Source of the DNA: Selenomonas sputigena ATCC 35185
Lineage (GTDB): Bacteria; Bacillota; Negativicutes; Selenomonadales; Selenomonadaceae
DNA length: 64,000 bases
NCBI RefSeq assembly: GCF_000208405.1
Contig: NC_015437.1
Location: forward strand, 806,001-870,000
Direction of reading: 5' to 3'
Part shown: positions 9,002 to 61,344 of the stretch, one piece after another
Position numbering within the stretch: position 1 is the first letter of the stretch
How the letters are laid out: the number at the start of each line of letters is the position of its first letter
Made by a program: the position numbers and the translations under genes
Notes under the pieces: generated by a model
Databases searched by the model: none
What the model was told of the DNA's origin: nothing
Seen by the model: only the letters and a program-made list of their open reading frames with translations

Positions 9002-9287
9002 TGAGGAAGCACTGATAAAATGAGGTCGCCCAGATTCGCACAGATGCGCTGTATCTATAGCGGTCAACGTCAGCCAATCATGCAGCGCGCTTCGCGCTTG
9101 CATTCTTGGGACGTTTTCGCATACGAGCCGTTGGCCAATCGTCTGCGTCCTTCGGACTCGACTCTTGGACGGCTCAGCAAGGAGACAAACCGCAGGTGTA
9201 GCGGTGCTACGTCGAGGATTTGTCGACGACGAGAGGACAGCGCAGATGTGTGAAGATGGGTGGCTGAATTTATCAGTGCTTCCTTGA
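9002..9287. repeat. Dispersed TIR element, copy A (long form with extra insert)
   Basis: Terminal inverted repeats are perfect over 15 bp: GGAAGCACTGATAAA (9005-9019) and TTTATCAGTGCTTCC (9269-9283). Both halves of the common core are present (GAGGTCGCCCAGATT..., GTGCTACGTCGAGGATTTGTCGA..., AGATGTGTGAAGATGGGTGG). Between them lies about 125 bp not seen in the other copies, with two related stretches containing CCAATC and TTCTTGG, and small hairpins (GCGCGCTTCGCGC, GTCCTTCGGAC). I see no coding capacity. Confidence 0.85.
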
Positions 9288-39663: not shown

Positions 39664-39744
39664 TATGTTGGCCAGTTGCGAGATGAAGGCTAGTTGTATA
39701 ATGAAAGCGGAGACTAGAAACGGATTTGTCTGCTTCCATTGGAC

Positions 39745-39772
39745 TTGACTTCTTAAATTTTCGTGGTAAAAT
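39745..39772 (+). promoter_or_regulatory. Promoter of rplM-rpsI
   Basis: TTGACT (39745-39750), 16 bases, TAAAAT (39767-39772). Confidence 0.75.
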
Positions 39773-59109: not shown

Positions 59110-59138
59110 TTGTATTCTTTGATACTTTTTGCTACAAT
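59110..59138 (+). promoter_or_regulatory. Candidate promoter of fur-hemZ
   Basis: TTGTAT (59110-59115), 17 bases, TACAAT (59133-59138). Upstream 58956-59109 holds no gene. Confidence 0.55.
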
Positions 59139-59191
59139 AGCTTATAAAGACTTTGAATTGACAGATACTTTCAATGTCTGCTCATTTTTCA

Positions 59192-59242
59192 TGTAAGGAC
59201 GGCGCACAATGTCCGCAAAGTGGACGTTTGTGCGTGTAGTTT
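59192..59242 (+). repeat. 51-bp direct repeat with inner dyad, copy 1 (fur leader)
   Basis: Starts TGTAAGGACGGCG and ends GTGCGTGTAGTTT. Inside, CGCACAATGTCC pairs with GGACGTTTGTGCG around GCAAAGT. Copy 2 is 105 bases on and differs at two positions. Confidence 0.85.
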
Positions 59243-59296
59243 ACCATGAAGCCCCAAGAGGTCAAGCCGAAGGCGTAGGCCGATTGGTCAGGCTTC

Positions 59297-59347
59297 TGTA
59301 AGGACGGCGCACAATGTCCACAAAGTGGAAGTTTGTGCGTGTAGTTT
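59297..59347 (+). repeat. 51-bp direct repeat with inner dyad, copy 2 (fur leader)
   Basis: Same as copy 1, except GTCCACAAAGTGGAAG in the middle. It ends 27 bases before the fur start. Between the copies lies 54 bp with no gene. Both would be part of the fur leader transcript if the promoter at 59110 is used. Confidence 0.85.
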
Positions 59348-59374
59348 CGCAACAAATCGTAAAGGAGTATGGTC

Positions 59375-59821
59375 ATGGCTAAAATAACAATGGAGGATCT
59401 GAGAAAGAGGCTGCAGGAACGTCAGCATAAGATGACGCCGCAGCGGCAGATCGTTCTGCAGGTTTTCATGGATCGTCCTGGCCAGCATATCAGCGCGGAG
59501 GACGTGCACATGATCTTGCGCGCCAATCATTCGGAAATCGGCTTGGCTACTGTCTATCGCAGCTTGGAGCTTCTCGTCGAGCTGGGGCTTTTGCAGAAGA
59601 TGGAGTTCGGCGACGGCTGCAGCCGCTACGAGATCTCGGATCTCAATCCTGGCGAGCATCAGCATCATCACTTGATTTGCCTGAGCTGCGGCAAGGTCAC
59701 CGAGTTTTCTGAGGATCTTCTGGAGAATCTTGAGAAGAAGGTTGCCGATGAATGCGACTTCCAGATCGAGGATCATCAAGTCAAGCTGTTCGGTTACTGC
59801 AAGGAGTGCCGCAAGCATTGA
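59375..59821 (+). CDS. fur: Fur family transcriptional regulator
   Basis: A 148-residue repressor. A winged helix (about 10-85) with TPQRQIVLQVF, ISAEDVHMILR and LATVYRSLELLVELGL precedes a metal-binding dimerisation domain with EHQHHHLICLSCGKV and CKECRK (two CxxC, structural zinc). It may be Fur, Zur or PerR; the HHH ligand stretch suits Fur. ATG 59375 is eight bases after AAAGGAG; ATG 59369 is too close. It overlaps the next gene by its stop. Confidence 0.9.
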   Translation: MAKITMEDLRKRLQERQHKMTPQRQIVLQVFMDRPGQHISAEDVHMILRANHSEIGLATVYRSLELLVELGLLQKMEFGDGCSRYEISDLNPGEHQHHHLICLSCGKVTEFSEDLLENLEKKVADECDFQIEDHQVKLFGYCKECRKH

Positions 59822-61344
59822 TTGTTCGACGTTTCTTGCTCGACCGAAAAGAGGAGGTCATCGTCAAGCTCGTGCGCGAGCTTTTGGAACTCTTCAAGAT
59901 TCGGGTGTTGGATCTTGAAGAGGAGTGCGGCGAGGAACAGGCGGATTTTGCCGTATTGTCTGTGCGGCATGAAATTGCCATGGATCCTGTGCCTGCAGTT
60001 CATACGGAACTTCTTGCTGTGGAGGAGACGGGGGAGGAACGGCGCTTTTCTATAGGGGGCGCCGCAAGGCAGGGCGAAAAGGCGATGGCGGCTGTCCATC
60101 GCCTCGTCAAGCTCAACCTCTACCGTCTCTTTCGTACGCATTTCGCTATGCCTGCGGCGGCATGGGGCATCCTGCACGGCGTCCGCCCGACGAAGATCGT
60201 GCATCGCTTCATCGAGGCGGGACTTTCGCGTGAGGAGATCGTCGCACGACTCGTGGAGGACTACGAGGTTTCTTTGGAGAAGGCTTCGTACATGACGGCG
60301 ATGGCGTTTCGCCAGAGACCGTTCCTGCAGACCTCGGACGAGCGGACGATCAGCGTCTATGTTGGCATACCGTTCTGCCGCTCGCGCTGCCTTTACTGCT
60401 CGTTTCCCGCCTACATCCTGCCGAATGATGAGCAGCTCAGCGCTTTTTTTGCCGCATGGGACAAGGATCTCGCGGCAGCGAAGCGCGAGATTGAGCGTCA
60501 TCGCTTGAAGGTGCAGAGCATCTACATCGGCGGCGGCACGCCGACGAGTCTCAGCAATGCGGATTTCGAGCGCGTGCTTTCCCTCGTCGAGGGAGCATTT
60601 TACGGCGAGCATACGGGCGAGTTTACCGTGGAGGCGGGACGTCCCGATACGATGACGCCGGAAAAGGCGCTCTCGATGAAGGAGCATCGCGTGAGCCGCG
60701 TCAGCGTGAATCCGCAGACGATGCAGCAGCGCACATTGGAGCGCATCGGCAGGGCGCATACGCCCGAAGACATCGTCCGCATGTTCCGCCTGTTGCGCGA
60801 GACGGGAGATTTTTCCATCAATATGGACGTCATCCTCGGCCTGCCGGGGGAGACGCGCTCGGACATCGCCGATACGATGGCGAAGGTTCTCGCGCTCGCC
60901 CCTGACGACGTGACGCTTCATTCGCTCGCCTTGAAGCGCGGCTCGAAGCTTAAGATGCACTTGGAAGAATATGAGCTTCCGAATGACGCCGAGGTGCAGG
61001 CGATGTTTCGGACGGCGATGGAGCAGGTGCAGGACAAGGGTTTTTTGCCGTACTATCTCTATCGGCAGGGCTATATGAGCGGGCAGATGGAAAATGTCGG
61101 CTGTGCGCGTCCGGGCGCTGAGAGCATGTACAATATGCAGATCATGGACGAGCATCAGACGATCCTAGGCATCGGCTGCGCCGCGACGAGCAAGATCATG
61201 AATTTCCGCACGAAGAGGCTCAAGGCGTCGTTCAACGCCAAGGATTTTCATACTTATGTGCGCGATATCGACGATTATATCGCGAAGCGATCCGCTCTTT
61301 TAGCGGAGGCTTACCGAAACGAGGGGGAGGAAGAAACGTGTTGA
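59818..61344 (+). CDS. hemZ: Coproporphyrinogen III oxidase-like radical SAM enzyme HemZ
   Basis: A 508-residue HemZ-type enzyme. It has about 165 residues of family-specific N-terminal region (HGVRPTKIVHRFIEAGLSREEI, in parts), then a radical-SAM core VGIPFCRSRCLYCSF with the CxxxCxxC cluster, IGGGTPTSL, RVSVNPQTM, and DVILGLPGET. Relatives take part in oxygen-independent haem synthesis, though HemZ activity is not proven in all hosts. TTG 59818 overlaps the fur stop (TTGA) with AAGGAG 11 bases before. The pairing with fur suggests iron-linked control. Confidence 0.88.
   Translation: MIVRRFLLDRKEEVIVKLVRELLELFKIRVLDLEEECGEEQADFAVLSVRHEIAMDPVPAVHTELLAVEETGEERRFSIGGAARQGEKAMAAVHRLVKLNLYRLFRTHFAMPAAAWGILHGVRPTKIVHRFIEAGLSREEIVARLVEDYEVSLEKASYMTAMAFRQRPFLQTSDERTISVYVGIPFCRSRCLYCSFPAYILPNDEQLSAFFAAWDKDLAAAKREIERHRLKVQSIYIGGGTPTSLSNADFERVLSLVEGAFYGEHTGEFTVEAGRPDTMTPEKALSMKEHRVSRVSVNPQTMQQRTLERIGRAHTPEDIVRMFRLLRETGDFSINMDVILGLPGETRSDIADTMAKVLALAPDDVTLHSLALKRGSKLKMHLEEYELPNDAEVQAMFRTAMEQVQDKGFLPYYLYRQGYMSGQMENVGCARPGAESMYNMQIMDEHQTILGIGCAATSKIMNFRTKRLKASFNAKDFHTYVRDIDDYIAKRSALLAEAYRNEGEEETC

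Follow-up and report, generated by a model that had tools for sequence, protein, structure and literature searches.

The twin repeats before fur in Selenomonas sputigena probably belong to a dispersed palindromic element of the Selenomonadaceae

The two near-identical repeats in the leader of fur in Selenomonas sputigena ATCC 35185 are probably (at a rough probability of 0.7) part of a dispersed, non-autonomous, REP/BIME-like palindromic mobile element of the Selenomonadaceae that is kept as a structure, rather than a purpose-built fur switch. The element is multicopy and mostly intergenic, occurs singly or in arrays without a preference in orientation, has been gained or lost between sister species, and has a conserved structure. 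As regards fur, the repeats are most likely passengers, although the hairpins may have some effect on it. What looks like a tidy hairpin pair in a regulator's leader is here one site of a genome-wide repeat, and recognizing it as such corrects a tempting misreading.

Within the 64,000-nucleotide stretch that was analyzed (the window), a repeat search confirmed the twin 51-nt copies reported by a first-pass annotation (59192-59242 and 59297-59347; 96% identical; 105 bp from start to start). Each copy comprises GCACAA-N17-TTTGTGC without mismatch, and these are the only exact occurrences of the dyad in the window. The dyad with up to three mismatches was not enriched there (23 matches versus 16.9 expected; 14 of 100 shuffles were equal), and a version with an 8-base gap yielded no match because the real spacing is 17. 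Two features had been overlooked by the annotation: the 54 bp separating the copies form a further, different hairpin (s), and the repeats are members of a dispersed family. The repeating unit of this family is about 108 bp and comprises the s hairpin followed by the h hairpin of the 51-nt copies, such that the h-s-h order of the fur leader corresponds to a truncated unit followed by a full unit (Table 1). The s hairpin is built from a TTAC/GTAA base, GAAGCC/GGCTTC, CCAA-GA...GA-TTGG, GGTC/GGCC (with one wobble pair), and GCC-GAA-GGC. The predicted RNA fold of 184 nt spanning both copies is strong (-72 kcal/mol, z -6.0, matched by none of 200 shuffles), as is that of the complete unit by itself (z -4.7 as RNA and -3.8 as DNA). 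The probable fur promoter was not listed by a consensus promoter scan; its stretch is identical in the sister species (G001, the only other genome of the genus that was compared with this genome, G000), and TTTGCTATAAT-like promoter sequence is present in the fur leaders of several relatives. A scan of the fur leader found no terminator-like site.

Table 1. Features of the window that bear on the repeats (window positions).
Feature	Position	Strand	Evidence
Two s-type hairpins without h (9065-9117, 9126-9174)	9065..9174	-	R1, 27.7 and 23.3 bits; CCAAGA...GATTGG
Partial s hairpin (profile positions 1-48)	39721..39770 (G000 845721-845770)	-	nhmmer
Probable fur promoter	59110..59138	+	TTGTAT, 17 nt, TACAAT, TG ahead; by eye
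h hairpin of 5'-truncated first unit	59188..59242	+	Repeat search; profile positions 54-107
Complete unit, s then h	59240..59347	+	cmsearch, model R1 positions 1-108, 124.4 bits (unit is itself among the 61 from which R1 was built)
s hairpin	59240..59301	+	Structure counted on alignments A2 and A3; near-fixed internal-loop bases
h hairpin of complete unit	59307..59340	+	Repeat search, A2 structure count, DNA fold
Right end of unit, GTAGTTT	59341..59347	+	End counts over 46 G000 and 37 G001 arrays
fur (PF01475)	59369..59821	+	Pfam, E 1.2e-36
Radical SAM gene (hemZ in the first-pass annotation)	59836..61344	+	PF04055, E 3.1e-25; start from home-made gene call

Genome-wide searches revealed that the twin repeats are real but not specific to fur. 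Counts per genome from the BLAST and R1 searches are lower bounds, because the candidates scored per genome numbered at most 40 (BLAST), 20 (family-wide R1) or 10 (class-wide R1), and the larger searches were run with stricter filters. BLAST with a 176-bp stretch of the fur leader returned at least 48 matches in G000 (40 of 108 first-look candidates scored), and at least 45 in G001. A 29-base h pattern (up to three mismatches) matched 68 times in G000, 52 times in G001, and 32 and 83 times in two further relatives (G003 and G170, respectively); the reversed pattern matched in none of the nine genomes tried. Copies, partial ones included, were found at 63 places in the examined stretches of G000. 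The covariance model R1 had matches in 61 of 189 genomes of the family, from 15 of 30 genera (E ≤ 0.01). A class-wide search at E ≤ 1e-4 recovered matches in 57 of 380 genomes, of which 51 were within the family and six outside; matches in these six were weak, with the best among the matches listed at 43.5 bits. No match to the element was found in phages, plasmids, or IMG/VR. Comparison of the fur-leader stretch to Rfam gave only two sub-threshold matches (E 1.6 and 3.3), and Rfam comparison of 16 loci gave no match to the unit and one tRNA elsewhere in one locus. A literature search on Selenomonas repeats listed nothing relevant, and the word Selenomonas is absent from the main texts of PMC3733652 and PMC6006769. 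The lack of a match in Rfam and of relevant literature suggests that the repeat family is apparently undescribed.

Units are found alone or in head-to-tail arrays with a repeat length of about 105-108 bp, in which the outermost units are often truncated. Across 46 arrays in G000 and 37 in G001, the left end is mostly TTTAC and the right end mostly GTAG(T/C)TT; the next base after the right end is A in 27 of 46 arrays, the one after that is C in 27 of 46, and 16 arrays have both (a manual count). Structural conservation was evaluated with two alignments: A2, comprising 61 of 68 full units from two species (we dropped seven near-duplicates), and A3, comprising 77 family-wide matches (73 distinct) from 66 loci that we chose. 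Covariation in relatives, a check proposed by the first-pass annotation, is strong. Among the 35 pairs, 11 had changed on both sides in A2, and four of five measures exceeded all 500 shuffles; the fifth, further pair types, did not (30 versus 28.9; 162 of 500). In A3, 31 of 35 pairs had changed on both sides, 95.2% of cells were paired (27-46% with slid-partner controls), and none of 500 shuffles was as good on all five measures, although these pair counts lean towards the model to which A3 was fitted. This covariation is strong for a dispersed repeat. The internal-loop bases of s (GA opposite GA; AA opposite GCA) are near-fixed and among the most constant bases, while the intervening pairs vary: the GA/GA counts are G 69/72 and A 69/72 opposite G 70/72 and A 69/71, and C33 and G82 are each 72/72. 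An excess of G-U, sought as a signature of RNA, was not seen in either alignment. G-U cells were barely more common than A-C cells (42 versus 36 in A2 and 52 versus 48 in A3; binomial p 0.57 and 0.76) in a count that omitted one G-U-dominated pair per alignment and in which misaligned rows may inflate A-C. This suggests that the pairing is not specifically RNA-like, and a folded strand of DNA accounts for it no less well than RNA does.

The units are nearly all intergenic, with an overlap of more than 30 bases with a called gene in three of 64 hits in G000 and two of 68 in relatives (neighboring genes were called with a home-made codon model). At least two of the 64 hits (388477 and 1718696) match a palindrome already counted on the other strand, and some are partial units. 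Of the 60 hits in G000 with both neighbors called, 17 were co-directional with both genes, 22 were antisense to both, 11 lay between divergent genes, and 10 between convergent genes; the corresponding numbers for 68 arrays in relatives were 22, 17, 11, and 18. Gap types with the element (34 co-directional, 13 divergent, 9 convergent) resembled those without it (34, 9, and 7). Likewise, there was no replication-strand bias among 63 arrays (29 versus 34, p 0.61), with the origin and terminus placed from the GC skew of sampled stretches. The lack of an orientation rule, the ordinary gap types, and the lack of strand bias argue against a function linked to a single neighbor's transcript. In seven of 32 cases (one of these with a truncated last unit), an antisense gene ended no more than 5 bases from the right end, versus 0/27, 1/28, and 0/33 for the other gene-side combinations, which fits insertion at TTTA-like sites that overlap stop codons. 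No transposase-like cluster was seen by eye among the 25 largest clusters of proteins encoded beside copies. At positions 546241-546348 of G001, a unit seems by eye to extend into the 3' portion of a short reading frame that may be antitoxin-like.

Comparison of G000 with G001 provided evidence of turnover. Both flanks match G001 next to a unit for 16 of 63 arrays in G000 (a manual count), although the left-flank match for one of these (105554) lies about 250 bp away. At two sites (G000 2505524 and 2544889), G001 has the two flanks joined and no unit between them. One of these empty sites is at TTTA, and the other, at which G000 has a degenerate copy, is in the T-run of a terminator. The stretches of G001 were sampled around its own units, such that most sites in G000 were not comparable for emptiness; four further sites that were compared were not interpretable. 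Array size differs at sites common to the two genomes (e.g., fur, 1039032, and 2203579). As regards the hallmarks of a classical MITE, duplication of a target was not evident, as left and right ends do not co-vary as a duplication would, and no long inverted repeats were seen by eye at unit ends. If the element is mobile, a trans-acting protein may recognize the folded single strand through its outer stem, GA/GA mismatch, AA/GCA loop, and h hairpin, and may move or copy the unit into T-rich, TTTA-like sites. Where such a site is the right end of a unit already in place, an array would result. Against the reading as a dispersed mobile repeat stand the small number of clean empty sites (just two, one with a degenerate copy), the lack of an evident target duplication, the lack of a gene family strikingly recurrent beside copies, the retention of the fur-leader unit in both genomes of the genus, and the copy-rich genomes G001, G003, and G170, in which PF01797, the Y1 transposase family, was not found.

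A dispersed element of this kind has several counterparts among described systems. REP/BIME/REPIN sequences with RAYT (TnpA-REP) transposases are likewise short, dispersed, intergenic palindromes that are often in tandem, form single-strand hairpins, and carry conserved stem mismatches, which the E. coli TnpA-REP requires (PMC8266576, PMC3116915). The s-h unit shares the property of multicopy intergenic palindromes but is longer (108 bp) and comprises two different hairpins in direct order; its consensus 5' of h is GTAAGGGCG, with GTAG 3' rather than 5' of the hairpin, and no Y1 transposase (RAYT) was found in G001, G003, G004, or G170. CGTC-tagged REPs are also palindromic repeats without a known mobilizing enzyme and are described as apparently lacking a dedicated transposase (PMC3733652); the s-h unit differs in that CGTC is not conserved as a tag, the stretch preceding h being GGGCGG in the consensus and GGACGG in the fur copy. 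By description, the STAR elements of staphylococci are similar in being interspersed, intergenic direct repeats (PMC3532100).

Both genomes of the genus carry a unit in the fur leader, whereas none was identified in approximately 3-kb fur loci of 11 family genomes outside the genus (ten with units elsewhere, and G002, in which R1 had no match). The h-s-h arrangement is not conserved even between sister species: the fur leader of G001, with similar flanks, has a single full s-h unit of another stem type (GAAAAT/ATTTTTC). Compared with this full AAAAT-type unit, the junction of the first h in G000 (CTC-ATTTT-TCATGTAAGG) fits a deletion between ATTTT repeats, and its left edge, CTCATTTTTCATGTAAGG, is what would be expected to remain had the sequence from the flanking ATTTT to that in an AAAAT-type s been deleted. 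This comparison of sequences suggests an ancestral two-unit array at fur that was cut differently in the two genomes, with deletion and loss of a unit possibly yielding h-s-h in G000 and s-h in G001. The fur leader of G177 has a different repeat with ends GGAAGCACTGATAAA and TTTATCAGCGCTTCC, by eye like the element at 9004-9284 of the window, which suggests that the leader tolerates insertions. A second Fur-family gene lies within a cluster of several units in both orientations (G000 about 2543000-2544995).

These observations bear on the proposal of the first-pass annotation that the twin repeats are a tandem control element of fur, with RNA hairpins as one option. The hairpins are supported by folding and by covariation across the family; the control element is not. 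The annotation had stated that it would be refuted by copies dispersed over unrelated loci together with a fur leader in which relatives do not conserve them. Scattered copies were found, and conservation before fur is absent outside the genus but not within it, where G001 shares the unit. A dedicated element is argued against by the unrelated locations of the other copies and by the missing unit at fur in all 11 genomes outside the genus. A narrower version, in which the paired hairpins act in cis within the leader of the fur mRNA, as an RNA switch or attenuator with iron, heme, or another signal as its input, is in our view highly improbable: the strong fold, the location between the probable promoter and the ribosome-binding site, and retention within the genus are consistent with it, but the unit has dozens of copies next to other genes in either orientation, is arranged differently in the sister species, lacks a match in Rfam, and is accompanied by no terminator-like site. 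Provided that the promoter is correctly placed, the h-s-h stretch would nonetheless be co-transcribed with fur, and it may influence the mRNA passively. A broader possibility is that the units are a genome-wide structured RNA, or a protein-binding site in RNA or DNA, with a cellular role (mRNA stability, nucleoid or supercoiling, small RNA) and have spread by recombination rather than transposition. Conservation of the pairing and loop bases across genera argues for it, in that this exceeds what a purely selfish repeat would need and could reflect a cellular role, as does the recurrence of related hairpins, also inside another repeat. We nevertheless consider it unlikely given the insertion difference at two sites, the lack of an orientation link to transcription or replication, and, for a role as RNA, G-U cells hardly above A-C cells, though misaligned rows may inflate the latter.

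If the repeats are instead a mobile REP/BIME-like element, the question is which enzyme moves them. One answer, compatible with this reading and naming the enzyme, is IS200/IS605-type (Y1 HUH) single-strand transposition, in which a host TnpA, present or past, would cut the unit at TTTA-like sites and carry it along as a passenger. Like IS200/IS605-derived non-autonomous elements, the unit has hairpin ends, fixed T-rich ends, and no evident duplication. G000 encodes six near-identical, IS200-like Y1 copies, two of which (about 1181474 and 2040591) immediately adjoin an s-h unit on its right side, following TTA/TTTA, although this may be mere use of the site. PF01797 was detected in 72 of 189 family genomes, comprising 30 of 61 with R1 matches versus 42 of 128 without (Fisher p 0.037, uncorrected for kinship). 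This weak, recounted association raised our estimate slightly, to a level that is still doubtful. PF01797 is missing from nine of the 16 genomes in which R1 matched 10 times or more (including the four relatives noted above), replication-strand bias is lacking, and the ends of the six IS copies in G000 are by eye unlike those of the unit, with no matching autonomous element among these copies. Several genomes rich in the element gave no match to the enzyme with which repeats of this type are commonly associated. Another, tentative, answer is a new class specific to the Selenomonadaceae, in which a hairpin module whose GA/GA and AA/GCA core is near-fixed, present in at least two kinds of repeat (the s-h units and an element with terminal inverted repeats), would be read as a folded single strand by an undescribed non-Y1 host or mobile protein; our estimate of this was lowered slightly because the weak association with Y1 was found.

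The s module extends beyond the s-h unit. The pattern CCAAGA-N8-38-GATTGG matched 116 times in G000, a few of these looking like chance matches inside other sequence, versus 0 for the reversed pattern. The two s-type hairpins without h at the beginning of the window (Table 1) are inside an element of about 281 bp (9004-9284) with 21-nt terminal inverted repeats (AGGAAGCACTGATAAAATGAG), suggesting that the s module is common to more than one kind of repeat. The matches include paired and alternating hairpins with other stems, as at positions 323489-323823 of G000, where six CCAAGA...GATTGG hairpins of two alternating types follow one another at a spacing of about 60 bp in a BIME-like array.
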